From the NCBI GenBank assembly GCA_963855995.1, contig OY979724.1, positions 13,019,032-13,083,031 on the forward strand: a DNA stretch of 64,000 nt. The letters run 5' to 3'. Below, one piece after another: positions 29,900 through 64,000 of the stretch (positions within the stretch are counted from its first letter, which is position 1; every line of letters begins with the position of its first letter). The notes beneath the pieces are model-generated. The model made no database searches, was not told where the DNA came from, and was given only the letters and a program-made list of their open reading frames with translations. A program made the position numbers and the translations under genes. This DNA comes from Muricea muricata. Lineage: Eukaryota > Cnidaria > Anthozoa > Malacalcyonacea > Plexauridae.

Positions 29900-30171
29900 T
29901 CAAGCGATGATTTTTATTTTCACGTTGGACACGAACACGCTCTGAACCGTTGTTTGCTCTTCGCGACTTGCTTCGATATTGTTGAAATCGTTGTCCACAA
30001 AAATATAACGCTTGTTTTTCAAATCCCCCGTGTTTCCAAGCTCTGCGTCCAAAATTCCTCGGAGTTCTCTCAAGCTTCCCTGAATGTTGACTCTGATTTC
30101 TCCCAGGCGTTCAAACATGTAGCCACTGTCTGGTTTGACGAGGTTTACGAAAAACTTTCGTAGTCGCCCAC
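29900..30171 (-). CDS. Predicted last coding exon (cytoplasmic C-terminus) of the fusion gene
   Basis: An open stretch from a good acceptor (30173/30172) to TGA at 29900 encodes about 89 residues with a charged, ordered look ([35 protein letters not shown]). It starts two bases into a codon, and the preceding tail exon has a perfect donor, GGAA|GTAAGT, at 31082 in phase 1; the join gives ...AYGSGRLRKFF. I do not recognise the domain. The alternative is that the tail exon is not spliced and ends at the TGA at 31059-31061 (…SKSSYKN), leaving this exon to an unknown gene. Confidence 0.6.
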
Positions 30172-33100
30172 CTGGTGGGAATAATTAAAAACATTTTATA
30201 TGTATTTATGATATAGACTATCATCGAATATTGAGTATTCTGTAACCTGAATGGCTCGCTACTAGTAGGACATTAGCTCATATCCAACTAGTTGAGAAAA
30301 CAAGATGGCGGCCGAAAGTTTTTCGATCGCAAAAAATCTTTTGAGCATTGTGGCAGCCTTTCTTGGCCATACGTACAACACATAAACTTAGATAAAGTTT
30401 TTGAAGGTTGGTACTTGATTTAAATGTCACCTAAATAAGTATAAAATACAGTTACGAAATAATACTGAATAAGTCTGGAAAAGATTGTTTTGAATTGCTA
30501 TAATAACAAAAACTGTGCTCAATTTTGAGGTCAACAAGCGTTTGTTTCGCCCAAAACATTTATATTTTTTAAGAATTTGAAACGTTTGGCAAAATTTGTT
30601 TGAAACATAATTTTGAATAAGGATAAGTAGTGTTTTATGCGGTATTAGCTGAAGTTGTTTACATTGCTAAACTAATAAGCATATTTTATTAAAATATAAC
30701 TGCAGTCATGGAGTGTTTTTTTGGCAGCAGTTGTTGTCTATATAACTAAAAAAGATAATAACTGTTAAATATAAGAAGGGCATTCCCTGTGATGGACTAA
30801 ATTTTGACCTAAGCTACGAGAGCGAAATCAATCAGCGCAGCTAGAAAGAGCAGGTTGAAATTAGCAATATTGTAAAACTTGCTTGCGAAATGTTGCAAAG
30901 TACAGACGATAATATAGCCTCGCAAAAATTACAAAAAATTGTATATATTTGCATTACGCGCGGACAAGCTTGCCATCAACAACATAGCTCGCGAATAAAC
31001 TCATCTTGCGCTCAGTGTGTTGAATTAACGGAGAACGAATGTCTTTATATAAGACCACTCAATTCTTGTAAGACGACTTACTTCCATAAGCTCCAGAACG
31101 CACATTGGTACTCAAAGACTCGTCAAATACTGGGTTCAGTTTAGACAACTCCCCTCCAATCGATGTCTTATGATCATAAGCATGATAACCACTACCCACA
31201 GACTCGTATCCATTGCCGCTCCTTTGGAAATTCGGTCGTTCGTAACTGCCGCTAGAGTTCGGCTGACTGTCATAGTTGGACGTAGTGTGTCGCCCTGGGG
31301 TTGATGGCATTGAGGTGTAGAGGTTCGGTGAAGCGGCCGAACCGGGTTTTCCTGGCATCTGGACACGAGATGAAGGGCCATAATAAGATCCGATGTTGGT
31401 TGGTGGTTTGGAACTGGTTGGGGTTACCGCTCGGAAAGCTGTACGCGATTGGCTGGTTGTGTGGCCTCGTACATCGTCGTTAGTTGCCGTATTTGGTCGG
31501 CTTACGTCGTGACTGGCTGCGGTATTTGATCGAAGCAGATCGTGATTACTTCCCTGTGAAGAAATATGGAAGAAAATCAGCGTATCCTCAAAAAGTGACC
31601 TCATCATACGTGTAATAAAGAAAACCATATGAGTCATGAGACGATGTCTTGCGAAATGAAAAAGACGTTTTGTGATGTGTTCGACGTGTTAACATGGTAA
31701 GATCTGGAAATCTTTCTATATATATACGTTTCTTAAACCCAGAGGGTTAAGCATTTTCGAGTTCAATTCCTTTTTAATTTTTTGCAAGTTCAATATTCCT
31801 GATGTCATTGATTTTTATGCCTTTCTGCAGCAGTTGAAAAAATCACTATCCAGTGGATAGCGTTATCTACCTTTGTACAACCGACCCCCAGAATATACAG
31901 GTCTATGCAGGAGGCCTAAACAAAAAACTTGTAAGTGGAGATCTAGAAAAGCATTCAACGTCAAAAGAAGATCTTGTAACTTACTATCGTCTGATTCGGT
32001 GCTGATCTCTCAACGCTAGGTGCCATGCTTCTCCTTACATGACTGGGTGGTCTGTGACTGTACCCGGGGTCACTCTTATAAGAGGGAGGCGAATCTTGTC
32101 CTGGCATGTAGCCCCTGTTTGGAATCATTTCGCGAGGCTCCTTTTGTTCAGATTTGTACCTGGAGTAACACGCTAGGATCACAGCGACCAGCACGCCCAC
32201 CGCCAATATGGCACCGCCTATTGACCCGAGAACAACTGCCAACTGAAATAAGAAAGATCGTTGCCAATTTAAAATACTCTAAAACTATCATTTGGACTAT
32301 TATTGGTCTTATGCGGAACCTGCTATGGCGTTGTCACATTCTTTATCTAGTTGCTCGGGGACTATATGTTCAAAAGCCGGTTAATTTACGCCCTGGGTTA
32401 ACGTAAAATTTAATAAAAATTTTTTAGCAATTTGTTTATAACTTTGGAACTGGTATTTCGTCAGAAATCTAGTCTTGAAAACCATAATAGTAATGTGAAA
32501 ACAAGTTGTTTGCTTGGAGCCAAGTCGTGAGATGCTACTTCGGGATTTCAACACTAACCCAAAACTCGTACAATAACGCGAGAAAAATTCAACAATGAAT
32601 GCCGGGCTGCTTTGATGGAGCACGCAAAAAACAACAATTCTACATACAACTCGAGATAGGATATGCCAGACTACGAACACAGTTAGACAGATTATTTTAT
32701 GTGAGCGAGGATCGTGGTAAGACAACAAAAAGCTTATTTCCAAGCAACTTACCACGGTGGAACTATCTTCGCTGTCGCTTCCAGGTGCTTTGTAAGTCAC
32801 TCCATCCCGTTTCAATTCGTTCGTCGTTATTGTAGTACCATTGTACTCGAGTTGTAATCCCCCAGGGCTGTTCACGTCGTTTGATATTTGAATTAAAACA
32901 TCAGTCTGCTGAGACTCTCTTGTGATCATGTCGAACGTCACGATGATGCTGCCTTCTCGTACAGCGAAATTGGTGAAGATCGCGTTGGGATATTTGAGGC
33001 TTAATGATCTATTCACTTCCGCAATGAAGTCTTCCTCCTTACCCTGCACCACGCTATTGTAATCCGCGTCCGCGAAAGTGAGTTGGAGTTCGGCAAGCAC

Positions 33101-36100
33101 CTCAGGATCACTGGCTGTTGTGTCTGGAGTGAAAGTCACTGAGATTTCTACTGTGGTTTGGGTTGATAATCTTTTTCCTGCCGGCGCATTATCTTCCACC
33201 TTGGTTGTCAACGAGTATCTATTTGTTATTTTGTAATCCAATGCTTTATTCAAAGAGATCATGCCTAAAACACAAAAAATATGATACTTTGAGACTTGGT
33301 CATAGTCAAACTAAACTGACTTCATCATAGAACATGCCGAATAATGCTATCCACCATGGATGGTGCTATCCACTATTCATACAACCGACCCCAGACCTAT
33401 ATTGATACTATTGATCGGTGACAGTTCCTTGGAAGCAGAACACGACTGCTAAAGGAGCCAGCTTACCTGTTGTCGTATTGATAACAAAATATCCTCCACC
33501 ATTTCCACCAATGATACTGTAGGACAATCTTCCATCATCACCGCTATCCTGATCTTCAGCAATCACCTGTACAACTGGAGTGTTTACCAGGGTATCTTCC
33601 CTCAACACTTGCGGAGATATTGCATTCGAAAATCTTGGTGTAAATTCGTTCACCGGGCTCACTTGAACATTTACAACTTTTGTGGCAGATAAGGGTGGCG
33701 TCCCTTGATCTTCGGCTTGAATCGTCAACGCATATCTTGCGTTTGCCGCATGGGTTTTGGTTTCCAAGTCTAAGCTCTGATTCACTGTCAGGGCTCCGCT
33801 GTCTTCGTTGATTTTGAAGAAGCCCAGTTGATTTCCAGAAACGATAGAGTATTTGATCATCCCGTTTGGTCCCAGATCCGTGTCTGACGCTTGCACGCCC
33901 AGCACAATAGTATCTACCGTCGCATTTTCTACGATGCTCACATCATCTGGAATACTTACAGAGAACACTGGTGCCACATTATCAACATAAATAACTTCGA
34001 TACTCAGCAGCATTGAAGCTGTTTTAGGTGCCCCTTGAGTCGCTTGATCTGTAGCGGTGATTGTAATGTTAATCGGAACAGTGGTGAGACTTAACGCTTT
34101 TGCAACAGAAACTTGTCCGTTATTTTGATTAATAGTAAAATAGCCATCATTATTTGGCGATGTCATGGTGTACTGCATTTCTCCGTCTATGCCAAAGTCT
34201 TGGTCATCAGCTTGTGGTTCGTACACCACATCAGATACTGGAGTATTGTGAGCGACTGTAATGAACTCGACATCCTTATCAAACGCGGGTGTAAATTCGT
34301 TAACACTTGTCACTGTGATGCTCAAACTCTGTGATGCGGATCTCGACGGAACACCGGAATCTGTTGCAGTAATAGTGAGGGTATAGCTCAGGCCTTGTGC
34401 GTGGCTTGAAGTTTCCAAGTCCAACGATTTCGCCACATTCACCTCTCCAGTAACCGAATTTATACCGAAGAATCCTAGCGAATTTCCTCCCGTGATGCTG
34501 TATGATATCCTGGCATTTTCTCCAATGTCTGCGTCAGTTGCTTGCACTTGAGTGATAACTGTTCCAACGGCTGCATCTTCGGACACTTCTTGTGGAGTTA
34601 TGGCACCAAATATCGGTTCCTCGTCATTGATATCTGTAATAACAATGCTCAGGACCATCGAGGCTGTTCTGGCTGGTCCAACATTAGGTTGGTCTGCTGC
34701 CTGAATGGTCAGGTTTACCCCATCAGGCATTGTTTCTCGATCCAAAGCCTTCGCTACAGTTACTTGTCCTGAAACATCATTAATTATGAAGTAACCAACA
34801 GGAGTCTCCGAGGTAATACTGTACACAATCTGACCATCTGTTCCGGCATCACCATCAGTTGCCCTAGCTACGTAGACCTCAGAAGACTCACTGATACCTT
34901 CGCTGACCTCTACAGTATCACTGGAGCTAGCAAACTGTGGCGTAAACTCGTTTTCAGGAAGAATAGAAATCTCCACATCCATCGTACTGTCACGTGCTGG
35001 ACTGCCGCCGTCGCTGGCTTCAATAGTCAGTGTATACCTCAAACTTTGTGGTGGGTCATTTCCTTCCAAGTCTAAAGACTTCTTTACTTTAATCTCTCCA
35101 GTTTCGCCATCAATTTCAAATATGTCATCGGAGTTACCAGCATTAATACTGTAGCTGACGTCAGCATTTGCACCCAGGTCTGCATCAGTTGCACCGACCT
35201 GAACAATGACGTCACCTACAGATGCCCTCTCTGATACGTTTTGTGGACTGACCTGAGTTGTAAAACCTGGACTGTTGTCGTTGTAGTCAGTGATTTGAAC
35301 AGTAAGTTGCATGGTTGATGATTTGGCTGGTCCAGTAGCTGGTTTATCTGCAGCTTGGATGGTAAGGATAACACCATTAGGTGTAACCTCTCTGTCTAAT
35401 GCCTGAGCTACTGTAAGGCTTCCCTCGGAGTTAATTTTGAAATAGCCAGAGGGATTTTGAGCTGTAATAGAGTACTCCAGTTCCCCATCAACACCATAAT
35501 CTTTGTCTGTTGCATTGACCTGGTAGATTTCTGAACTTACAGAAGCGTTCTCCATCACTTGAATTGTGTCGCTAACGTTACTAAATTCAGGCGTAAACTC
35601 GTTTTCAGGTGTTATGGAGATATTCACATCCATTGTTGTTGTTTGGGTAGGAATTCCGCCATCTCTTGCTTCGATTGTTAGGGTATAGTTCAGATACTGT
35701 GGTGGGTCATTTCCTTCCAAGTCTAAAGACTTCTTTACTTTAATCTCTCCAGTTTCGCCATCAATTTCAAATAGGTCATCGGAGTTACCAGCAGTAATAC
35801 TGTAACTGACGTCAGCATTCGTACCCAGGTCTGCATCAGTTGCCCCGACCTGAAAAACGACGTCACCCACAGATGCTCCCTCTGATACGTTTTGTGGACT
35901 GACCTGAGTTGTAAAACCTGGACTGTTGTCATTGTAGTCAGTGATTTGAACAATAAGTTGCATGGTTGATGATTTGGCTGGTCCAGTAGCTGGTTTATCT
36001 GCAGCTTGGATGGTAAGGATAACACCATTAGGTGTAACCTCTCTGTCTAATGCCTGAGCTACAGTAAGGCTTCCCTCAAAGTCAATGTTGAAATACCCAG

Positions 36101-39100
36101 AGGGATTTTGAGCTGTAATGGAGTACTCCAGTTCCCCATCAACACCATAATCTTTGTCTGTTGCATTGGCCTGGTAGATTTCTGAACTCACGGAAGCATT
36201 CTCCATCACTTGAATTGTGTCGCTAACGTTACTAAATTGAGGCGTAAACTCGTTTTCAGGTGTTATGGAGATATCCACATCCATTGTTGTTGTTTGGGTA
36301 GGAACTCCGCCATCTCTGGCTTCGATTGTTAGGGTATAGTTCAGATTCTGTGGTGGCTCATTTCCTTCCAAGTCCAAAGATTGTTTTACTTTGATTTCGC
36401 CAGTTTCACTGTCAATCTCAAACAGGTCTTCCGTATTGCCAGCAGTGATGCCAAAACTAATTTGGGCATTAATGCCAAGGTCACTATCAGTTGCGCCTAC
36501 CTGGATTATGACGTCACCCACTGCGGCCGTTTCGGAGACAGTTTGTCCAGAGACTTGGGCACTAAATTGCGGGCTGTTATCATTAATGTCAGAGATATTT
36601 ACACGAAGTACCATGCTGTCTCCAGCCGCTGCCCCAGAGAATCCTCTGGCTTCGATAGTCAGCTCATATCCATTTGGTGTATCTTCACGATCTAGCTCTT
36701 TTGCAATGGATATTATACCTGTGTCCTCAGCTATACTGAAGTATCCATCAAAATTCCCCGCTGTGATAACATAGACGATTCTGCCAAAGTTGCCGTAATC
36801 GCTGTCGGTCGCTGTTGCTCGGTAGACTTCGCTAAGCAACGTAGCATTCTCTGGTATCGAGACTGAGTCGCTTGCCTGGGGAAACTCTGGGTGATGTTCA
36901 TTAACGTTGACAACAGTTATGACGATATTCAGTGGCGTCGAGGTCATCTGAGGTGCGCCCTTGTCTTTGGCGATAATTTCTAAAGTTACAGTGTAGTTTT
37001 CTTGCCTCAATGTGTCCAGATCGATGGATGCTGAAAAATGAAAGGATTTCGATTAGTAAAGCTCTTAGTATCAAAGTGTTGGTGCCACAGTGTATTGTGA
37101 TCACAAATATTCTTAACACAATGTTAAACCAAGCATAAAAAGTCGTAGTGTCGGCAATGAAGCTTAAAGCATACAAAACTACATGAAACAATTTAAACAG
37201 ACCTTCAACGCTTCGCGCGAAAGACCCACGCTCAAGATTTTGTACTTTCCTTACATTTTTTTCGTAGCATATACAAAGAAAATCTTCAAAGCAAAACGGA
37301 AATCCTTGCAACGCAAAACATGTTACTGAAGTCTAGCCAGCAAGACGAATCACATAAATTTGGTGTCGCTGAATTCCATATGGATGATGCTTATGTTTGG
37401 ATTCCGCATCGTGGATTATACAAACTTAAAGAGCTACAGTTCAGCTTTATAAATTGCTGGCAAAATTTTCGAGCTTCACCTACCATTCAAGGTAAGATCA
37501 CCGGTGTTTTCATCTAATTTGAACCAACCATCATCATTTCCTGATCGTATCTCGAATGTGACCATCGCATTGATACCAGAATCTGCGTCTGATGCTGAGA
37601 AGTTCGCTAAGACATTCCCAGTGGTGAAGTTCTCTGGAATCATCACCAGTGTTGGTCCTTGAAGTCGTGGAGGACTATCATTAACATCCTCAATGGTGAT
37701 TGTTAATTGACCATGTGTGTACCGTCGCCTTGGTGGTAAACTGCCATCATATGCTGTCACTGTAAGAACGTAACTCGCAGTTGTTTCTCTGTCTACCGAT
37801 GCAGATGTTTGAACAAGCCCTGTGTTCGCATTAATCTCAAATTTGTTCTCGTCGTTACCCCCTGTGATGTTATAGTACACCTCCCCCCGGATTCCGGTGT
37901 CTTGATCCGTGGCATTAATCGAAGTAACATTGGTCCCGACCGCACTGTCTTCTGGGATACTTGCTGTGTACTGGCCGTCTGCTGGTATAAATTCTGGAGC
38001 GTACATATTTGGAGTTACAACGTCGAAAGTGTGACTGACCTGAAATTAGTTTCAATAAGAAAGTGTAAGAGGTGGAAGTATAGAAAAGTTGTTCAAGGTT
38101 TGGTTGGCGAAAGCCTGGGTTAAAGTTTAACGCCGTTTATTTTAAATCATCAGAAACTACAACTACAGTCTATTATTAATTCTGACGAGATTGCTGAAGA
38201 AATATTTCCATGTTTGCAAATAAACTGCTGGCAAATTTCGTCTGAATTTTACGTTAACCTAGTGTTAAGCTAACTGGCTAGGGGCCAGGGACCAATTGTA
38301 GATAACTCTTTATGAATGATCACTTTTTAATCACTGTTTTGTAGTTATATGTACAGTGATTAAGTTCAAAATACGTGGTTTGTTGACGTTTCCACTAATC
38401 ATAGTCAACTTTAGTCTCTGCTAAATCGTACACACGATTCTATGAGGACAAAAATAAACCTAGTGTTTCTACTCTCCCCATAGAACGAGCATAATTCAGG
38501 CAAGGACTACTGCAGTATACTTCAAGTAAGGACTCTCTTACCGTGTGTCCATCACTAGAACTGACTTGCACTGTATAACCAGTCGCCAACTGATCAATCC
38601 CCAAGTCTGTGAAATTTCCAATAGCATCCACCACACTGACATTGTGGGTGCCAGTAAACGTAGCGCCAGAGGGGTTCACAGTTAGTGCCACAGTCAATGT
38701 CATTGAAGCTCTCCAAGGTAAAGCAATGAGACCTGTACCGATATCTCTCACTTCGACAACGAGCGAAAATGGCAGAGCTAGATCAGCAGCAACCTCTCGA
38801 GTTACCACCAAATAAAATTGTCTTTGTTGTACTTCTATTCCATCCGAGTTGGCTGTGAGCGTGTTATAGGAAGATGCTGGTTCAGTTTCGATTCCGAATT
38901 GTAAGATAACACCAGTACCGACGTCGCTGAGTCCAATACCTGAGAAGGTCACCTGCCCGTTTGTTGGAATTTGCACGCGAGTTTCTCCGATGAGAGTATT
39001 GCCGTTTGTCGTTGATACTGTTGCAGACCTAAAGGAAAATAAGAAGCCGTTTTGGTCAAATTCTACAAACTGCAACATGGTTCGTTTTGATTGTATAGAA

Positions 39101-54100: not shown

Positions 54101-57100
54101 ACTCATTAGAATTGAATGTTTATGAAGTAATCTTCAACTTACAAGGACGTTTGAAAGGAGAATGTTTAAATAGAGATCTAAATGGCAAGGATGGGTGCAA
54201 TTAAGATAGGAGTGGCGATCAAATGTACTTGGAAATGATGGAATGAAGTGACCAGATTCATTGGAACTGAGTGTTTATGTAAGACTCTTCAACGTTGCAA
54301 AGCGATTTAGAAGTGGAAAGTTTAAATAGAGATCCAAAAATGGCAACGATGGCTCAATGAAGATAGAAGTGGCGATCAAGTATACCAAGAAGGGACTAGA
54401 TCCATTAGAACTAAATGTTTATAAAATAACATCTTCAACTCACCAAAGATAGCAACCGGAGACAATCTTCTGGTCTCGGTATCAGTATCCAAACTTTCAA
54501 TAATGGCCATTTCATGAACCATATCTGAACATTTATAAGCGTTCCAGTTTTCAAACCAAGTACATTGACTATCGCCTCTGATAATTCCTTTGTAGGGAAG
54601 ATATGTACTGATGTCAATACGAGATCCATCTGGACGCGTTTGCGCTGCGGTTGGAATTCTGTAGTCACCTAAGGTTTAAAAACAATCTTAGTAACACTCT
54701 GTTGCTCTTGTTATGGTCCTTAATCATTATTGTTCTAGCTATTCTGCTTCTTTTTGCTTGTTGTCCTGGCGTTGACTGTACAGACACTACTTTTCGGTTG
54801 CCGCTGTGATGCTATTCATTAGCCAAGGCAGTCCTAAGAAAAAACAGTGTGCATTTAAAACGTAATCTCAGTACCTAGACCAAACCTAGGATCTCCGCCC
54901 CATTGGTATTCAGCTTTGGGAATAATCGTAGTTCCCGCTTTCCCTGTAAAACTACCATCGATATCAGTGATCAACAGTTGGCGCCGTCCATCGCAATCCA
55001 TATCCACACAATCTGAAGGATTAATCCATCTGAAAGAACAAATAACATCATCTTATTTGTAAGTTTGCAAGAAAGGGATAGTATACTTGGCGCTTCAGTT
55101 TGTAAACTTGTTGTATGCGGGTTTTAGGTTGGGTTAACTGACTAAAAACAGTGTCACAATCTGCACAGAAATATTTACAGAATCATTCCTAAAATCTCCA
55201 CTCAAAAGCTGCGAGGCCCACGCAATTTTCACGCGCGCAATTAAGCCTCGAACTAGTCTGATATGAATATTCAAAATGGCGGCAGATTTGATTTTAAAAA
55301 CTTTTTTGATAAGAATAGTCAAGAATAAAATATGGCTTGTGTTGGTTGTTTTACGATGCAAATATTTGTGTACGTATACAGGTTGGTTTGGAATTGGCGA
55401 AGATATGTTGGGCACTGTTTGCTTCACGAGAAAGAATTGGTTTTGGTTTAAGGATTGTGAGTACATCAATATTATTAAATATTAATATGATTTTTTAAAG
55501 TTACACAATTTCCATTTTCATTCATAAAGTTATTCTAAGATCCTACTCATGTTTTAAATAATACTTCAAACAAACATTTCATACCAGTTATCCCAAGATC
55601 CTACTCATGTTTTAAATATACTTCAAACATCATTAATAATTCATAAGGAGAACACAAAGAAAATCACGGCGATGAAGGAGTGTGACTCGCATAAAATGTT
55701 TGCCACGAAATTTCTTCACAAAATTGATCTAAAATGGCTCGTTTTTAAAGCTATTTTAAATACTTGCAGTTTGTGCTTAAAATAAGATATAAAATGCTTG
55801 ATTGCTCTATATGCACTCTGGCTTGTGTTTGAAATAATACATAAGATTTTGGTGTAGGGGGGGGGGGGAGGGGTGGGCTATAAAAATTTAATTATTAAAA
55901 GGCTAATTTTGTGTGGCCCACCCCTGATTTTTTTGGCACTAGAAATCCTTAAATATCCTCCCAGTATGTTCTCAAAATTTTCATGACCGACCCCTATTTG
56001 TGACTTGAAAAATTCATGACTCACCCCTCAATTTCCATAGCCCCCCCCCCTATACTTTATGACCAGTCCCTTTTTATTGAAAAGTAATGATTCCATGGAT
56101 CATTTATAAACAACTTTTTGTTAACTTGAAGAGAGGTGATGTTTAAAAGATGTCATCTTACCGAGTGGTCGGGATTGTATAGAAAAGCATAGATTCATTG
56201 TCCATGTTTGATTTAATTATTCCTTCCATTGACATTGGATGAGTAATATCACCAACAACTGGGTTCGACATGATTGCTGAATCACGTTCTCCATCGCATG
56301 CCGTTCGAAAAGAATCAAATGTCACGTTCATGAGTTTTGTTATCCCATAAATGGCAGGATAAGACTTCTGGGCATCCCATCTCATTACTGGCCCCATTCC
56401 TCCTTGCGACATGAAACTTGGCATCAGTATGCCAACATTGCCACCTTAACATGATATAGATGAAGTAGTCAGTCAGGTCAGCTGATTAAATGTCAATTCA
56501 CACGGTGCTATGTTGGGTGCAATTTCTGCTTTTAGAAAATGTCAACGAGTGCACCTAAAATCTGAGCAAAAGTCAACTGTGAATCTTAGCAAACGCAATA
56601 ATATTTTTACTCTTTCGTGTCTCGTTGACTTAATATTTCTGATACTCATCTTCCCCCTAATTTGACAACCCTATTCAAGTCTGTATGTCCGTAATGTTAA
56701 CACAGTTTCAATCTGTTTCAACTCCAAAAAAAATTTTCCAGTACGCTATTTCTAAGTCCACGTTTCGAATCTTTGGAACTTCTTAATTGCAATTTTTGTT
56801 TATACTTACTTATAAGCATAATACACAAGAGCAACTTTAAATATTCAGTATATCAATTATATACATTAATATCAATTATATAGTTTAAGTTCAAAATGTA
56901 AACATTAAGCAAAATGCGTACACTACAGACTTCACATCATCTTTAACGCTCATTGCTCAGCTTTCAACAACCAGCTACATATTGAAGTTTAGACTATACA
57001 CAAAATACTTTACCTGATCGAGTTCTAAATGCACGTTGAAAGTCGTTGACCACCGTTGTCACTGGTGCAACCGCATCAACAGTACAATCCCAGCTTGAAC

Positions 57101-60100
57101 TTCTTCCGATTATCACCGTATCTCGTATGTGGACAAACTTATCTGATGTCTTATGGGTAAGCGCAGGTGGATCATATACTATCGCGTTTATAGAGTTAAC
57201 ATTGTCCGCAAACACATTATCCTGGATCACCAGTCTTGATTTCGTAAAGGCAAACATTCCCCAATCGTAATTTTTCCACGCCAAGAAACCAGAGATCATG
57301 GCACAATTTGGAATACCTTGTTTGTATAGTATGCTGATTCCATGTAAAGCACCATGGACAGTATTGCCATGCCATTTTGATGGTGATGTTTTGGGCGAGT
57401 CGCATGGTTCACCGTCGATGAAGTAACCGACGCGTTCACTGCCACCTTGAGGAAGGAAATGATGTCTCACACATGTCACACGTCTTCAGCTACTGTAGGC
57501 AAATTCAGTCAGGGGATACTTGCGCGCATTCATGGCTTAAATCATAGAGTTGGGGAGTTTATCATACATCCTGTTCTGAAGATTTGGGTATTACAGTAAG
57601 ACAAGAATGACTAACTTACATCACTTTGTTGTAAATTTGTACAGCATAAAATGTATGAAATTACTTTAGTGAATTTTGTCTTGTCATAATGTACATGTAG
57701 ATAGCAATAAAAAGCAAACAAAATGTACACACATTCAAAACCTTCCCACTCAGATCGGATTAGGATTAAGCTCCTTCATATCTCAATTGAGAAGTGCCCG
57801 TCCAACGGATAATATATGCAGTAGGCTAGCTAACTCTTTGGCAGTTGTAAAAAAGCTTTTAACGAACCAATCTCCACTGTACGTACCTACTGTATTGTTT
57901 ATGAGGACAATGTCAGTGCCTGAATCCGTTTCAATTGCTCCAGGCCAGTGGATATCGAACTTATCACGACGATCCTTGTACGTGGAGTACGAAGCAGAGT
58001 AAACAACCAAGTTATGTGTTATCTTATTAACCTTTCCTCCCACTCTTATTGAAGCACCGATTGTAAAGTACACAACATTGTCTTCGACTGATAAATCACT
58101 CGTGCCAAATATGCCCAAAGCTGAGTTGAAGTTGTAGTTGAAAGAGTTGCCTTTCACGTAGGTCTCGTTGCTTCTGGTTGCGCCAACGTTCAGGATAGCG
58201 AGGGAATACCTAAACAACAAGAATGTCTTAAGCAGATGCTAGTGTCAAAGTGTGTATGGTAGTCGTGTGGTGGGATGTGATGTGGTTTGTTGGGTTCTGT
58301 CGTTTTATGATGTGATGTGATGCAGTGTTATGTGATGTATAGTGTGATGTGATGTGATGTAACACATAGAAATAATAGATATAGAATACGTGCTCGGTAA
58401 CCTAGCCGGTACCCAAATTGAAAAAGAATTGCCATTATAAATCCGCCATATTGGATTTGTCCTTGGAGCGGTCTATGCAAAATGCAATAGGCCGAGTCTA
58501 ATTTTGCCCTTATAAATCGGCCATTTTGAATTTTAATGTGGCGTCACTTGTTTACCTGAAAATAGATAGGAGCACGCATTCTTTATCTGTTATTTCTATG
58601 GTGTAACATAGCACGGTAGGCAATGGTATGTTTCTTGATGTTATGTGATGGTCGAGTAAAATTGTTGTATTATTTGTTTTTGAATTATTCAGCGTGGTAT
58701 GGTGTGGCATACAGGTAATGGGTATATCATTGATGTAGCATTCTCGATGAGCTACTCTATGGCAATGTCCATCGAATGGAAGTAATATGCATAACGAGTA
58801 TAATACAACTTTTCTACCTTGGATCATAGGAGTCGCTCCATCCTCGTTGACCACAATGTCTGAACTCGACATTCTCAATCTTTGCCTTTCCAATGTACGT
58901 GTCATCACCAGCCATGGTCCGACCAACCAAAACTCGGCAACCAAAGTCCTGGTTAGAAATGGATCCTTTCGGATTATCTGCACCTTCTATTTTCACATTC
59001 CTGGTCAGCAGGCCAACCTCAGCCCCGAGTCTGTATTCTCGTCCATCTTCCAGGCTGTGAAGTATGCTAGTATGCTTGTACTGCAGTGGTTTCTCCAGAG
59101 TAATTCTCTTGTTGGTAACTGCCGAGATTTTTACCACCTCTGCTTGTCTTGCTTCGAAACTTGTTGAAGTTATGACAATTTCATCTCCAGCTTTCCAGTC
59201 TCCGGCGCCTCCGTTACCCACATTGTCTTCGACATCAATCACGTCTCCTCCCGCATTCACTGTCGACGAAAGTCGAGTCCAGTACACATCTCTCGGCAGG
59301 CCGTGCAGCTCAAGGGTCCCGAACACACCCAGGGCTTTGGACCCGAGATTGGGCCCGTTATTCATGGGCATTTCCGGTGAATACCAGTCTCCTTGAAGCG
59401 TGATTAGCACGTTTCCTGGATGAGGGTTCTCTTCTGTACCGACAATAAGCTTGGCAAAATCACCCATGATTAAAATAATTGAAGCATTCAACACGTAATC
59501 TACAGCGAAATATGACAATTATGAAGTGACTGAAAGTTTTAATGGTTGTGTTTGGTGCTGTTGCGTGCATTTCCACTCGATTAATCAATCACATGTATTC
59601 TCAGACTGTGCACATACGAGATCGTTTCAGCAGAGCGTTTTCACAACAGTCAAAATGAAAATTATATGAACTATAAAAATTTTTATCGCACGAAGTTTTT
59701 AGTTTTTGTCCATAGACGAGGTTTATGCTGGTTTTCATTAAATTATGTCAACAAGTCAGAAACTTTTTGAAAGAATTCGGAATGAAAACGCTCGGAAACG
59801 TAGTAAACCTTGGCAGTGGATTAATGATTCATTGTACAAGAGTCTCTGATTACCTCGGGTATTTTCCAGTTCTAGCACACCATGAATAATCAATCTATTC
59901 ATCTTGGGGAGTTGGGTGTCTGCAATCATATGCCAGTTTGATCGAATGTTTACATCGTCTCCATCTTCTGGCAAAACTCCGCCATACCCCCCGTATTGCA
60001 GTTCGGTTGGAGATTCTGGTCTATTCCAATCTGCTGCTATAGACCATTTCAGGTCGTAAATTTCACCAGCTTCCCCAGGGGGAGGAGGTGTTGGTGGTAT

Positions 60101-63100
60101 GCACTTCAGGTAGAAGCATCGATATACCTATAGCATGATATGCACTGTATGTTATGTATTGAAGTATTTTGTATGTTTCTTATGTCTGATCAGTGCACGC
60201 GTGTTTCATCTCTGTGACTGAGATGTTGGTGACGCAGTGGTTAGTACATGTATATTTCATCTCTGGGACTGAGATGTTGCTGACACAGTGGTTAGTACAT
60301 GTGTCTTTTAATCTCTGTGATTGAGATGTTGGTGACGCAGTGGCTTATTAGCTACATCATGTATACACATAAACGAGTATAGCTTACCTTTAAGCTGACA
60401 TCTCTTGTCGCTGGATTATTGTTCACGCTCAGCTCAGCATCTTTGCCGCTGACCAAATATGTCAGTGTTTTTGTTCCATTATTAAATCCCCAAGAACCAT
60501 GATCATCGGTTGGTGTCGGAATTTCGTCAGTGACATTCTGTATTATTCCTGTCGTTGTGAAGAAATCTGGTTCTTGTGTGAAAGTATGTTCGACTCTGTA
60601 GAAATACATATACGAGAAATGAGACTTGTTGTGAAGCTTTCGCAAGCCATACGAGCGCATCCTAATATCGATTTGACGACTACACTGTTGCAAGAATCCA
60701 ACTTGTCCGACTTGTTTCAACTTGCAGGGTTACTGCAATTTCTAAGCTTGGTAGAACAAGGATTTTCTCGCTTGTGCAAGGAAACAGACCAACGTAAGAA
60801 TGAACAACATCATGAAATACTTTAAAGAGAAGAACAGCTATTCACCCAAAATTTGTGTTGTCATTTCTTCCCTTGATTGTACCTACCTGATGTAGTCTGT
60901 GGGTTGAAAATCGTAGAAGGAACCAGAGTATGTAATGTTTGTTATTTGGGTGTGATTCTTAAAAGCCAATTTATAGTCCTGACCGACTATTACTGTTGTT
61001 GTCCATCCGTCTGGATGAGTTATAGCTTTGGCTTTCCACGGCACTGCGCTCGTTCCTGCTGAGTTTGTTAGTAAAGCATCCATAGGGTTAAGCGATGAAG
61101 GCAAAGCTCTGTTAAACGAGAATCTCTTAAAGGTAACCGTTGCATCACAAACGCTGCCACCAACGCTTCCAAAGCTATGTGCAGGTTGTTCTGTACAGGA
61201 GTTTGGTGGAAGATTTTCATTTGTCGGAACTAAGCTACCTCCAGGAATCCCTAGAAGAAAGGATTGAGTTTAGACATCAGTTTATCTCGCGTTCCACGGT
61301 GTCTGAACCCGTTACCATTGACATATAAAGGAGCTTGAGATTTATAACGCAGCAGCTCGATGATGCGTCGTCAAAATAAATAATTTTCTTCTAGAAAACG
61401 ACTATGAATAATTTGTAGTAAGAAAGAAGTACCTAAAAATACGGAAAAGTTTCAAGTACTTTCCTTTTTCTCAAAGAAAATTGTACATTATATGTACATA
61501 ATATATGATAGCTTCAATTTGATATACGGTTCAATATTTAAATCTGAATCAAGTCGGCTTCATCTCCTCTTCTTGAGTTATTGTTCTAGCTTTACTTAGG
61601 GCTCGATGTCTGTTACTTGGCTTCGTAGTTATCACCGTTCTCGTAGCACTAATAACGTTGGCATTTATCGGCTATAGGTTCATGTCACTCCAGAAAGCAT
61701 GTCCGACGTGAGTATTATTGCCTGACATGACATTATAACCATTTACCTGTCAATGATCCGTCTAAATCCTTAAAAACGACTTCGTGTTGCCACTTGAACT
61801 TTGTCCGCCTGGGCGAGTTGATGAAAGTCATTTTCTCCAGTCGAACTGTCCATCCGCCTTGGAAGATTTTGCAATGAGCGCAAGCCTCCATCGTTGTGCA
61901 CGTTTCGTAGTCAAAGTTCACCAAGGTTACATTGGATATTGTTAATCTCGAGGTCTTGGGCAACTTTAGTCCAATCTCAGTGCAGTTTCTGTTTGTAGAA
62001 ATACGGTGTGGTAACCCTTCCGACAGCAGACTATGACCAACAATGAGCGAATCTTTGATCATTGCACCACCCCACGGAGCATCGTCGCTATCAGCGTCGA
62101 TATATTCAATCCCAGCTAGATCGTTGTCCATCATGATAAAGTCAACAAACCTCACGGCGCCCATTTGTACACCTTCAGAAGAAGAAGAAGTATTTTATTT
62201 GGCACAATAACTCCCAATATGTAATAATTTGTTATTAACAATTAGATTACGAGGCCGAGATTTCTATGAAGTGATAGTTGACAAGGGTGAAGCGAGTAGT
62301 CGAATCATAAATCCAAATCCAACGTGACATATTTAACTGTGTCCGACAAAACCAACGTGACATACTCAAGAAAATTGAGCAATTTTAAGCAATTTTTTCA
62401 TAAAAGATCTCAACGAAAATGATTATTTCGCTACTCGCTATTTATTGAGAAATAGATGTCTATCAAATTACAGAGTATATAGTAATTAAATGTGCACAGT
62501 GGTCGAAGTAGTGCAAAGCTTTTTTTCTGAGACCATTGTCTCTTTTGAAACTGACCTTCAGATCCTCTCATGTTGTTGTAAGCCAACAAAGAATTGAACT
62601 CAGCCGGCTCTGCTATTTTAGAATCACAACTACCGTCTTTCTTGGGGTGATAAACTGGGAAGATCCATAAACCGTATCGTCCAAATGAATGTGCGGTGTT
62701 ATTCCTGAACTCTAACATGAACACATTTCGCGGACAGACGTCGGGAGTGAACGATGGGCCATCTGGGTGTTTGAACATTTGATACCAAAAGCCGAAGTGA
62801 CTGCCACCTTATTAACAAGAAACAAACTTTTAGATTTGGCTAAAGCAATGAGGAATATAATTTATAGTTTAGCGACAGAAGAGATTATCTCGAACGATTT
62901 GTAAGTGGTCAAAGACAGTAAACTATAGAAATTGGTTTTCTAAAAAACGAATAACAAATTACGATGTCTTTTCTTTTAAAAGTCTAATCAGAATTGGCAT
63001 TTACCCCTTAGACGGGGGGGGGGGGGGCTACATCTTTCCATCAAGCTTTCACCTCTGAGATCCTGGCTTCGGTCCTGGAGGTCAACACTCTCCCGAAAGT

Positions 63101-63860
63101 CGTGAGTTTTCTCTGAGTACTTGCGTTTCTCCCCACATGGAAAGCTGATAGAGTTAGTTAGGAGATGCGGTTCTACAGTGAAGACTACTTTCATTATCTA
63201 CACTTAACATATGACTAGTTCATGACCTGTGACTAGTCCTAGACTATACACATCGTTGAAGATGTGGCAACGCTAAATAATAATACATCAAAACTTTAAG
63301 TAAAAAGTTCCAATTACCTGCAGCTACATTATGACGGACAGTGTTGTTCGCGTTAGTCACCCAGTACGAGGCTGGAGTCACATCCACATTCAAAGTTGAA
63401 GTCGAAGAAGTCACGAAGATACCGAGATTGTATTGAATAACATTTCCAATTTCTATACCATCTTCCATAAAGAATGCGTTTCCTTTGGCGTTGTAGAACA
63501 CATTGCGCTCTACGAACAGATTATTGATTCCATGCATCGTCACAGCGCGATTAAACGAATGATGAATACTACATCCTTTTACATAAGAACCATCAACATC
63601 ACCACTAATGTGGAAATGTATGGGATATCTTCCAATTCTGAATGCCTGTCCTGCATGACGGATTTCGGCGTGGTTGAAGTGTGCTGTGACCATGCCTGAA
63701 CTCTTGACTGGAGCATGGATCATGATTTGCACCCCAAATCCATCGCTGTCTGGTTCTTCGCCAAAACGTCCCTGGAAGCATGTCTGCGTTTGGAATTGTC
63801 CTGGTTCGAAGGCCGCAGGACAAGCTTCGATAGTTCCTTTCCATTCATCATGTTCAGAAC
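29900..63860 (-). CDS. PKHD1L1: Fibrocystin-L (PKHD1L1)-like protein fused to cadherin repeats, 5' partial
   Basis: Exons: 63860-63318, 62807-62556, 62172-61747, 61250-60887, 60595-60388, 60127-59854, 59499-58818, 58209-57887, 57445-57014, 56444-56162, 55029-54875, 54668-54444, 53934-53695, 43862-43657, 42341-42056, 41456-41277, 40651-39736, 39028-38542, 38039-37484, 37030-33467, 33264-32753, 32242-31985, 31553-31082, 30171-29900. All phases agree; about 4037 residues; the start lies beyond the right edge. Order (residues counted from the first exon here): beta-helix repeats 1-400, G8 and second beta-helix block 600-1400, fibrocystin C-terminal region 1400-1700, Ig-like repeats 1700-2180, cadherin repeats 2180-3600, membrane-proximal domain to 3705, one TM helix, tail. 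Vertebrate PKHD1L1, a large hair-cell and leukocyte surface protein, ends soon after the first Ig-like unit as I recall it. Intron 15 has a GC donor; intron 13 holds a 9-kb repeat array. Single-gene status rests on splice phase and domain logic, not on RNA. Confidence 0.85.
30172..31081. other. Last intron of the fusion gene
   Basis: 910 bp, AT-rich, no element or exon recognised. Confidence 0.5.
31082..32242 (-). other. Transmembrane and cytoplasmic exons of the fusion gene
   Basis: Exon 32242-31985 encodes a 23-residue hydrophobic helix ([20 protein letters not shown]...), then [10 protein letters not shown], a basic stop-transfer, and a Pro/Ser-rich tail with PPSYKS, a possible PPxY-type adaptor motif (family-level knowledge only). 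Exon 31553-31082 continues a Ser/Thr/Asn/Tyr-rich, Arg-punctuated tail with several YxxP and SxxY motifs. The single helix puts everything upstream outside the cell. Confidence 0.85.
32753..33264 (-). other. Last cadherin strand and membrane-proximal domain
   Basis: The first about 50 residues complete the final cadherin repeat ([11 protein letters not shown]). The rest is a separate alpha/beta unit with [20 protein letters not shown] and [14 protein letters not shown] that resembles a SEA-type ferredoxin fold by pattern. No GSxxV cleavage site is seen. It ends about 5 residues before the TM helix. SEA assignment is tentative. Confidence 0.5.
33467..38039 (-). other. Cadherin-repeat region (about 13 EC repeats)
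   Basis: Exons 38039-37484 and 37030-33467; the latter is one uninterrupted 3564-nt exon. Linker motifs of the DxNDNxP type mark the domain ends: VNDSPP, VNEHHP, INDNSP, ENEFTP (three times), YNDNSP (twice), INDEEP, VNEFTP (twice), VDNVAP. Each repeat has the DxD/DRE calcium-ligand motifs ([13 protein letters not shown]). The repeats alternate between ENEFTP-type and NDNSP-type, so the evolutionary unit is a pair of domains. Confidence 0.92.
34950..36900 (-). repeat. 651-bp (two-cadherin) tandem duplication within one exon
   Basis: Landmarks recur 651 bp (217 codons) apart: for example ACACCATTAGGTGTAACCTC at 35371 and 36022, and TCATTTCCTTCCAAGTC at about 35058, 35709 and, diverged, 36358. 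Two copies are almost identical at DNA level and a third is older. This points to recent unequal exchange or gene conversion between domain pairs. Confidence 0.85.
39029..39735. other. Intron 17 of the fusion gene
   Basis: Holds the MITE at 39500-39664; otherwise nothing recognised. Confidence 0.5.
39500..39664. mobile_element. MITE with CAGTAGCGAAGCCA arms
   Basis: Inverted arms of about 50 bp share CAGTAGCGAAGCCA.CCC and ATTTGGTCATGC. A decayed relative lies in TMF1 intron 20 at 5674-5768, so this is a dispersed family. Confidence 0.8.
40652..41276. other. Intron 16 of the fusion gene
   Basis: 625 bp. No exon or clear element. The acceptor at 40653/40652 (TTTTAG) was chosen over the CAG about 27 bp upstream because only it keeps the frame (NES|VANVTAG). 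Confidence 0.55.
41660..42010 (-). repeat. Two fragments of a tRNA-derived SINE
   Basis: On the minus strand, about 41760-41660 has GGTTCAATTCCTACCGTGG (B-box-like) followed by GTCAGGCATATTTTCCTG, and about 42010-41935 has a diverged GGTTCGATGGGAATG and the same tail GTCAGGCATATTTTTAGCC. The shared tail downstream of a B box suggests two insertions of one SINE family, different from the array at 44291-53330. Confidence 0.5.
42361..42877. mobile_element. MITE with about 150-bp TIRs (CGTTAAAGGGTA ends)
   Basis: Left CGTTAAAGGGTATTGGCAAC and right (inverted) CGTTAAAGGGTAAAGCAACA. The arms include TTGCTCATTT.AAA and TCCGCCATCTTGGAT. The core (about 42540-42700) is unique. It lies in intron 14, next to exon 15 of the fusion gene. 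Confidence 0.8.
42878..43656. other. Rest of intron 14
   Basis: AT-rich; small ORFs without family signal; nothing else recognised. Confidence 0.5.
43905..44290 (-). repeat. Three tRNA-like units in minus orientation
   Basis: Reading the minus strand, A-box-like TGGTCTAGTGGTAAAGG and B-box-like GGTTCAAGTCTCG occur about 43 bases apart in the outermost unit (about 43990-43915). Two more diverged units lie at about 44140-44070 and 44290-44220, separated by the same spacer (TTAAAGTCAATAATTTAT) as in the main array. Stems of a tRNA cloverleaf are only partly possible (T stem with mismatches, acceptor poor), so these look like tRNA-derived relics, not functional tRNA genes. Confidence 0.7.
44291..53330 (+). 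repeat. 9-kb tandem array of about 60 tRNA-like units
   Basis: Units of 148-153 bp follow head to tail through nearly all of intron 13 of the fusion gene. Each has GAACGAGTGGCCTAGTGGTA (A-box-like), a variable middle, GGGTTCAAATCTCGCTGAAG (B-box-like), an A/T linker (AAAATTTTGGCTTAAAATA) and TTAAGATTGATTAAAGTCAA. Variants alternate (with or without about 4 bases in the middle). Some units lack the B box (near 46110 and 47755). Higher-order copies exist, with offsets of 1204 and 1645 bp. No cloverleaf with a sound acceptor stem was found by eye. The array is antisense to the host gene. Confidence 0.9.
53331..53694. other. Intron 13 between array and exon 13
   Basis: Unique AT-rich sequence after the last array unit, which breaks off at about 53330. 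No element recognised. Confidence 0.5.
54038..54432. repeat. About 156-bp tandem repeat, 2.5 copies
   Basis: AAGTGGCGATCAA recurs at about 54055, 54210 and 54367; units also share AGTGACCAGA.TCATT and GTTTAAATAGAGATC. The last partial copy runs into the donor of exon 12 (54444/54443), whose flank CATCTTCAACTCACCAAAG resembles the repeat text ATCTTCAACTTACAAGG, so the repeat was seeded at the splice site. Confidence 0.75.
55030..56161. other. Intron 10 of the fusion gene
   Basis: Contains a G-run/C-run bounded element at about 55851-56060 and a direct repeat around 55530-55630 (ATCCTACTCATGTTTTAAAT twice). Otherwise nothing recognised. Confidence 0.5.
55851..56060. mobile_element. Inverted-repeat element with G-run / C-run ends
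   Basis: Starts GTAGGGGGGGGG...GGGTGGGCTATAAAAATTT and ends, inverted, TATAGGGGGGGGGGCTATGG, with internal ACCCCT words repeated (GACCCACCCCTGA-like). Arms are imperfect; a decayed MITE is the likeliest reading. Confidence 0.45.
56445..58817. other. Introns 7-9 of the fusion gene
   Basis: Gaps 56445-57013, 57446-57886 and 58210-58817 hold no exon. The last has a GTGATGTGATGTG short tandem repeat at about 58258-58366 and a duplicated TATAAATC.GCCAT.TT word at about 58436 and 58511. Confidence 0.5.
60185..60350. repeat. About 56-bp tandem repeat, three copies
   Basis: ATCTCTG.GACTGAGATGTTG followed by GACGCAGTGGTTAGTACATG occurs three times at about 56-bp spacing in intron 5 of the fusion gene, the last copy diverged. 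Confidence 0.85.
60887..63860 (-). other. First beta-helix block of fibrocystin-L part (exons 1-4 in window)
   Basis: Exons 63860-60887. They carry beta-helix repeat stretches typical of fibrocystin-L between its two G8 domains: [40 protein letters not shown] and [13 protein letters not shown], with [20 protein letters not shown]. Cysteines are paired by spacing ([19 protein letters not shown]). TIG repeats and the first G8 domain would lie beyond the right edge. Confidence 0.85.
61251..63317. other. Introns 1-3 of the fusion gene (61251-61746, 62173-62555, 62808-63317)
   Basis: AT-rich introns without exon signal. A 14-base G run lies at about 63014-63027. No element with clear inverted ends was seen. 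Confidence 0.5.
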
Positions 63861-64000
63861 CTGTTGTAGAAATAAGTTATAAAAAAGAGTTTTCTTTAAA
63901 TGTTATTTGTGGCCTTACTCTGAGACAAACTTTGAAGAAACTCTTTTTGAAATACACAGAACAGTGCTATAGAGCTGTGCGATAACCTGAAATTAAGCTC
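63861..64000. other. Intron sequence at the right edge
   Basis: 140 bp upstream (transcript sense) of the first visible exon. A possible acceptor (TTTCAG) near 63987 is followed by stops in two frames and has no donor, so no exon is called. Confidence 0.4.

Follow-up and report, generated by a model that had tools for sequence, protein, structure and literature searches.

A single predicted gene of the anthozoan Muricea muricata probably joins a fibrocystin-type ectodomain to a cadherin stem

The domain table of PMC13424714 gives fibrocystin two regions of G8 and beta-helix, a SEA domain that includes a cleavage site, and a single transmembrane (TM) segment. A relative of fibrocystin, PKHD1L1 (fibrocystin-L), belongs to the stereocilia surface coat of hair cells and is a hearing-loss gene, according to two reports (PMC6707252, PMC11043200). 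The first of these chose PKHD1L1 by asking how a stereocilia link protein should look (PMC6707252), and the second gives a histidine-finger residue, His552, as common to PKHD1L1 and TMEM2 (PMC11043200). The PKHD1L1 domain descriptions consulted list no cadherin domains. We report here the analysis of a window of 64,000 bases from the genome of Muricea muricata (assembly GCA_963855995.1, contig OY979724.1), the whole stretch to which all positions refer, whose minus strand carries a chain of exons that passes from a fibrocystin-type region into an array of cadherin repeats. The probable explanation of the whole is one gene encoding a large single-pass receptor, with a fibrocystin-type ectodomain set on a 13-repeat cadherin stem. 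Taken by themselves, the parts of this explanation are firmer: it is very likely that a single gene spans both halves and, given one gene, we are slightly more confident still that the product is a surface receptor. The evidence comes from the sequence of the gene itself, from profile libraries, from solved structures and from published papers. The N-terminus of the product lies off the window, as do earlier exons, including those where a first G8 and the signal peptide, IPT repeats and PA14 of the fibrocystin family would sit. The exon chain, the domain order, the frame, the single TM segment and the conserved TMEM2 histidine-finger motif can be read directly from the sequence.

A dynamic-programming exon finder with phase enforced, supplied with codon usage and with generic GT/AG splice matrices, returned on the minus strand a chain of 24 exons running from 63860 to 29924. 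Spliced together, these exons encode 3971 residues, and the sole stop is the terminal one, at 29900. The window contains no N, hence no recorded assembly gap. The codon table was built from 16 hand-picked open reading frames (ORFs) of the same region, exons 18 and 19 included, while exons 5, 6, 13, 15, 16, 22, 23 and 24 stood outside this training set. When the finder was run again without the phase rule and with the higher of the two exon penalties used, 22 of the 24 exons were recovered exactly, seven of the eight exons outside the training set were still picked, and the phases agreed at 21 of 23 junctions (20 of 22 when a spurious exon is removed), where about one third would be expected by chance. 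The misses of this phase-free run were the loss of exon 15, a shift of the exon 11 donor by 11 bases and the addition of the spurious exon at 63974. The chain scored 847; the plus strand reached 33, and three random sequences gave 17.5, 15.4 and 1.5. An initial annotation of this stretch had proposed a chain of this length and range with the phase-0 intron 38542/38039, and the exon finder agreed with it in these three points, which were the ones open to comparison. That annotation also held that there were 24 exons, all in phase; the phase-free run largely bears out the phasing, but the count is probably 25. The additional exon, termed here 12b, is an open stretch whose acceptor scores 2.9 and whose donor scores 3.1; the finder skipped it because its codon score is slightly negative, and we added it on account of an apparent resemblance to fibrocystin-L. 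With exon 12b included, the model has 25 exons and 4051 amino acids, and the frame stays open.

The domain order initially proposed, from beta-helix and G8 through mutually similar units to about 13 cadherin repeats, one TM segment and a tail, was confirmed by Pfam, by the repeat count and by hydropathy. In the first part of the chain, Pfam placed CEMIP_beta-hel (PF24606, 5e-62), then G8 (PF10162, 1.4e-28), then Beta_helix (PF13229, 9.8e-9), so that the G8 domain is flanked by two beta-helix modules, as expected of the PKHD1/PKHD1L1 family. Exon 1 aligned with the human cell surface hyaluronidase TMEM2 (8c6i, 2.7e-23), reading GRYPIHFH where TMEM2 has GRYPVHFH; the beta-helix thus carries the histidine-finger residue that marks CEMIP and TMEM2. 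The second histidine of the TMEM2 motif is presumably His552, assuming an offset that we derived from a full length of 1383 residues and a chain of 1301. Exon 6 gave no match to PDB sequences at E up to 1. After the beta-helices, exon 14 contains a furin-like RKRR site; the surrounding region was not matched by the SEA model of Pfam at E up to 10, and its best match among PDB sequences reached only E 1.6.

Preceding the cadherin repeats are four units, each of 103 to 115 residues, that resemble one another. They gave no Pfam match above cut-off and none among PDB sequences at E up to 1; the label "Ig-like" (immunoglobulin-like) that was first attached to them rests on their resemblance to one another, and we call them sandwich-like. 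As expected for an animal gene, a genome contig collection gave 47 pattern matches to exon 17 and a viral contig collection 27 to exon 18, of which none was confirmed in either case. Units 1 to 3 each close with a short strand-like motif (S-D-P-F-M-V, S-E-T-F-N-V and S-D-G-I-E-V). In unit 4, exon 18 stops short of such a motif; exon 19 then opens with V-S-H-T-F-D-V, followed by M-Y-A-P-E-F and cadherin repeat 1. In similarity to the unit-end motif, the opening 9-mer of exon 19 ranked 37th of 3963, and of the 231 open AG starts in 43600-37400, taken in phase 0, it came second. The motif test is therefore suggestive of a unit 4 split between exons 18 and 19, and the domain boundary probably lies inside exon 19, about 9 to 17 residues in, with the last strand of unit 4 encoded there. 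The initial annotation had the join fall at the phase-0 intron itself, and this placing would have to be moved by those few residues. If the boundary does lie within exon 19, neither half would be complete by itself. The junction exons 18 and 19 scored 46.0 and 44.8 in the phase-free run, third and joint fourth of the 24, both ORFs being part of the codon training set.

The cadherin part consists of 13 consecutive repeats of 102 to 111 residues, well beyond the two that define the superfamily. Pfam Cadherin matched exon 20 at 8.6e-202, spliced exons 13-19 at 3.6e-32 and the stretch holding the end of repeat 13 at 2e-8. Among the best 60 of 168 PDB matches of exon 20, CELSR1 led with 6.1e-97, and protocadherins, protocadherin-15, cadherin-23 and Fat4 were also present. 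Linkers between the extracellular cadherin (EC) repeats were read for calcium motifs as sequence patterns, which are not binding measurements. D-x-N-D and DRE are kept in five of the 12 linkers (EC1-2, 3-4, 5-6, 7-8 and 9-10), whereas six (EC2-3, 4-5, 6-7, 8-9, 10-11 and 12-13) show x-x-N-E with DLE or DLD. DXD is present in all 12, and is the only one of the motifs checked that is left in EC11-12, where D-x-N-D, x-x-N-E and XEX are lost. The stem had been pictured as stiffened by calcium throughout; this would hold for the five linkers with D-x-N-D, less so for the six with x-x-N-E, and hardly for EC11-12. Because the linker motifs alternate, and because a calcium-free linker of protocadherin-15 was reported to be bent, with elasticity in simulations (PMC5120219), a stem of alternating stiffness with one hinge is the better prediction than a uniform rod.

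Also, within the cadherin exon (34932-36563), EC5-6 and EC7-8 share 90.6% DNA identity (EC5/EC7 96.0%, EC6/EC8 85.5%, EC4/EC6 80.0%). Over half of the differences among EC5-8 fall at third codon positions. These values suggest a recent two-repeat expansion that gave rise to repeats 4 to 8, by tandem duplication or gene conversion.

At the membrane end, one strong TM segment was found (Kyte-Doolittle 2.60, next best 1.77), in agreement with the single C-terminal helix of the fibrocystin family. The juxtamembrane stretch that precedes it is predicted to be SEA-like from its pattern. It gave no Pfam SEA match and a best PDB sequence match of 0.34; its AlphaFold model, made without alignment, had a mean predicted local distance difference test score (pLDDT) of 52.5, too poor to use, and Foldseek on this poor model returned 880 matches up to 10, none of them up to 0.001. 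The tail counts 290 residues when exon 24 is included, or about 207 if translation ends at 31059, past exon 23. The product of exon 24 had no Pfam match, and its AlphaFold model without alignment (mean pLDDT 43.6) was likewise too poor to use; this segment may be a small uncharacterised cytoplasmic domain. Its best PDB matches were four S100A12 sequences at 0.18 to 0.23, which were taken as chance. With Pfam at E up to 1, the C-terminal part matched no catenin-binding or other cytoplasmic cadherin family, and neither this part nor exon 20 matched an EGF, laminin G or seven-TM domain. Coordinates are collected in Table 1.

Table 1. Exons of the putative fibrocystin-cadherin gene, with window positions and the basis of each assignment.
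Feature	Coordinates	Strand	Content and basis
Exon 1 (first in model)	63318..63860	-	Start of CEMIP/TMEM2-type beta-helix; GRYPIHFH at 63633-63610; PF24606 5e-62 over exons 1-2; TMEM2 8c6i 2.7e-23
Exon 2	62556..62807	-	Remainder of beta-helix 1; exon finder and Pfam
Exon 3	61747..62172	-	Region following beta-helix 1; exon finder, both runs
Exon 4	60887..61250	-	Exon finder, both runs
Exon 5	60388..60595	-	Exon finder, both runs; outside codon training set
Exon 6	59854..60103	-	Start of G8; PF10162 1.4e-28 over exons 6-7; outside codon training set
Exon 7	58818..59499	-	Remainder of G8 and following region; exon finder and Pfam
Exon 8	57887..58209	-	Beta-helix 2; PF13229 9.8e-9
Exon 9	57014..57445	-	Beta-helix 2; exon finder and Pfam
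Exon 10	56162..56444	-	Exon finder, both runs
Exon 11	54875..55029	-	Phase-free run favoured a donor 11 bases away
Exon 12	54444..54668	-	Exon finder, both runs
Exon 12b	53695..53934	-	240 bases; outside the 24-exon chain; in phase with exons 12 and 13; codon score -1.6
Exon 13	43657..43862	-	Region after beta-helices; outside codon training set
Exon 14	42052..42341	-	Possible SEA-type region; RKRR furin-like site 42203-42192; Pfam SEA unmatched
Exon 15	41699..41814	-	Weakest internal exon, score -2.1; required for phase; dropped in phase-free run
Exon 16	41277..41456	-	Exon finder, both runs; outside codon training set
Exon 17	39736..40651	-	Sandwich-like units 1 and 2, beginning of unit 3
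Exon 18	38542..39028	-	Remainder of unit 3 and unit 4, apparently minus its last strand
Exon 19	37484..38039	-	Join: VSHTFDV, apparently the closing strand of unit 4; then linker, cadherin repeat 1, part of 2
Exon 20	33467..37030	-	One 3564-base exon, from the remainder of cadherin repeat 2 into repeat 13, most of which it holds; Pfam 8.6e-202
Exon 21	32753..33264	-	End of cadherin repeat 13 and juxtamembrane SEA-like region (predicted, pattern only)
Exon 22	32039..32242	-	TM helix 32236-32168 and start of tail; outside codon training set
Exon 23	31082..31553	-	Tail; read-through past donor leads to alternative stop 31059; outside codon training set
Exon 24 (putative last)	29900..30171	-	89-amino-acid tail segment; stop at 29900; membership uncertain; outside codon training set

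The exon chain, the domain order, the frame and the single TM segment thus support the initial view of one gene with one membrane-anchored product, in which a fibrocystin-type ectodomain is followed by a cadherin array. Several observations weigh against this view. A first run of the exon finder, with phase enforced and a low penalty, broke the chain into 99 pieces and left the 38039 acceptor unused, taking instead an acceptor at 37993 together with extra small pieces; it was replaced by the run with a higher penalty. The 38039 acceptor is weak (2.3, against 6.2 for the donor), and so are exons 12b, 15 and 24. In the motif test, the three source motifs and several strands of cadherin repeats outranked the opening 9-mer of exon 19. 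A hidden Markov model (HMM) of units 1-3 gave unit 4 a score of 25.7 bits without exon 19 and 26.6 bits with it, while the mean over 500 random additions was 26.9. Neither Pfam nor structure backs the SEA-like regions. Finally, both the gene model and the putative receptor function were read from genomic sequence. The poly(A)-like hexamers and the possible start described below belong with these points.

The alternative that survives best, tentative as it is, keeps one locus and gives it several products: the long cadherin-stemmed receptor, and a shorter form that lacks a TM segment or is started separately. Reading on past exon 18, a stop is reached after 33 codons with no anchor encountered, and of the 21 listed poly(A)-like hexamers in 44000-29000, two fall in intron 18 (38331 and 38141); with such a stop and such hexamers, a short alternative product would be possible. 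At the other end, the read-through stop of exon 23 is accompanied by an AATAAA at 30690, and a soluble extracellular PKHD1L1 from platelets is mentioned in PMC11043200. Nevertheless, no direct evidence points to a short form, and read-through of exon 18 would truncate unit 4 ahead of its apparent last strand.

A second alternative, which we regard as improbable, is that the gene finder merged a fibrocystin-L gene with a neighbouring cadherin gene of the same strand. Vertebrates encode fibrocystin-type and cadherin proteins in separate genes, and this was counted in its favour, as were the hexamers within intron 18. Also in its favour is an ATG at 39626, in intron 17, the only one in 43600-37000 that closely precedes a hydrophobic stretch (the scan covered this interval and unspliced signal stretches only); the weak donors of its ORF fit the phase of exon 18 in three cases (1.9, 1.3 and 2.2) and that of exon 19 in one (2.0). 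However, this ORF has a codon score of -11.6 over 66 codons, i.e. noncoding codon use, and a protein begun there and joined to exon 18 would open in the middle of unit 3. Comparable starts were at least as common in controls: the plus strand of the same stretch has 7, and the minus strand of 1-29800 has 2.9 per 6.6 kb. Moreover, the first of the two genes would lack an anchor there, since no candidate (stop-free 19-mers of mean hydropathy above 2.0) was found on the minus strand of 44000-38040; this is a mild result, because the controls gave just 2 to 3 per equal length (minus strand: 11 in 29800-64000 and 16 in 1-29800; plus strand: 3 in 38040-44000). By the motif test, one domain appears to be divided between exons 18 and 19, although the HMM hardly distinguished the two cases. 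The initial annotation had named, as signs of separate transcripts, a stop or poly(A) site after 38542 and a new start with a signal peptide before 38039. On the DNA, hexamers, a read-through stop and the ATG at 39626 do exist, but the frame opened by the ATG has noncoding codon use and the 502-base intron 18 contains no ATG with a hydrophobic stretch.

An assembly error fusing two unrelated loci is very improbable: a 9-kb satellite within an intron of the gene (44301-53306, 152-bp units) and near-identical cadherin repeats such as EC5 and EC7 are typical places of misassembly, but some 5 kb separate the satellite from the join and the frame carries on across the satellite, the repeat search reported no tandem array at the join or within 4 kb upstream, no N occurs, and an error within the repeat array would alter the number of repeats and not the fusion.

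The window holds several other features. Most of the intron ahead of exon 13 is taken up by the satellite, in about 60 copies of its unit. On the plus strand the satellite carries 44 TGGCCTAGTGG-type and 24 GGTTCAAATC-type motifs, and 15 of the first 30 spacings measure 44-50 bases, like tRNA A and B boxes; ARAGORN detected no tRNA. A second tandem array at 23205-23739 has 4.7 copies of a 114-base unit with 91% matches. On the minus strand, 265-966 is an exon of a glucokinase regulatory protein-like gene (GKRP_SIS_N, 4e-40), and 4103-14125 is a coiled-coil gene, possibly TMF1-like (TMF_TATA_bd at 1e-4 for 4103-4363, below the curated cut-off); its long ORF at 12524-14125 had no Pfam match at E up to 1.

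Returning to the single receptor gene, a function in adhesion or in a surface coat, with a head held on a stem, seems to us evenly balanced between right and wrong. The beta-helix head would bind, or cleave, a glycan such as hyaluronan outside the cell. EC repeats measure 4 to 5 nm each, and a stem of 13 repeats may thus keep the head some tens of nanometres above the membrane, with stiff calcium-bound linkers alternating with softer ones and a probable calcium-poor hinge at EC11-12. The RKRR site may allow the head to be clipped from the stem, and the cytoplasmic tail would couple the receptor to the cell. The mechanism suggested is that of a glycan-binding head, a spring-like stem and a signalling tail. 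A PKHD1L1-like ectodomain placed on a cadherin stem with a real tail also suggests a class of partners for PKHD1L1, the long cadherins. We consider it doubtful, but worth stating, that the fusion is ancestral, an early-animal fibrocystin-cadherin receptor whose roles vertebrates later divided between PKHD1L1 and the long cadherins of stereocilia links. If true, the gene would be a "Rosetta stone" predicting PKHD1L1 and tip-link-type cadherins in one complex of the hair cell. "Fibrocystin-L" and "G8 domain" were among the InterPro entries quoted from the transcriptome of a marine flagellate (PMC7852580), which suggests that the fibrocystin part predates animals. Among the papers listed, mostly the top-ranked ones, our literature searches found no description of a G8-cadherin or PKHD1L1-cadherin fusion, most subscription papers and all protein databases being outside their coverage, and a deposited gene model with this architecture may well exist already.

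Compared with described systems, the ectodomain is closest to the fibrocystin family. To our knowledge, the PKHD1L1 of vertebrates carries just one Ig-like unit and lacks cadherin repeats, while here four sandwich-like units and 13 cadherin repeats precede the membrane. Beta-helix, G8 and beta-helix follow in the order of the fibrocystin domain table, and the basic site lies in a possible SEA region where that table places a SEA domain with its cleavage site (PMC13424714). The histidine-finger motif is the one that PKHD1L1 is stated to have in common with TMEM2 (PMC11043200), and there is one TM segment, as in PKHD1L1. The initial annotation had contrasted the gene with a vertebrate PKHD1L1 ending in a single Ig-like unit and a membrane anchor, without cadherin repeats; the anchor is borne out by the published single TM segment and tail, given as 8 (PMC6707252) or 9 residues (PMC13424714), far shorter than the roughly 207 to 290 residues found here.

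The first module also resembles TMEM2 and CEMIP, with a CEMIP-type beta-helix that bears GRYP(I/V)HFH. These hyaluronidases have a single G8/beta-helix module and are not known to carry cadherin repeats, and the TM segment of TMEM2 sits at the N-terminus. In contrast, a G8, a second beta-helix, sandwich-like units and cadherin repeats follow in the present gene.

The long run of EC repeats recalls protocadherin-15, cadherin-23, CELSR and Fat4/Dachsous, and the calcium-poor EC11-12 linker recalls the elastic EC9-10 linker that PMC5120219 describes in protocadherin-15. These long non-classical cadherins differ in that here a fibrocystin ectodomain precedes the EC repeats. The EGF and laminin G domains that stand between repeats and membrane in CELSR and Fat were not matched here by Pfam at E up to 1, and neither was the catenin-binding cytoplasmic domain of classical cadherins.

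A precedent for an outer domain carried on cadherin repeats in early branches is offered by Hedgling. According to PMC4054682, these are large TM proteins, present in choanoflagellates, sponges and cnidarians, whose outer Hedgehog domain sits on cadherin repeats, and they are proposed there as antecedents of Hedgehog. Hedgling has Hedgehog and VWA domains rather than beta-helix and G8, and is likened to the present gene by architecture alone. As with Hedgling, the fibrocystin-cadherin gene of M. muricata bears on how large animal adhesion receptors were assembled and split.

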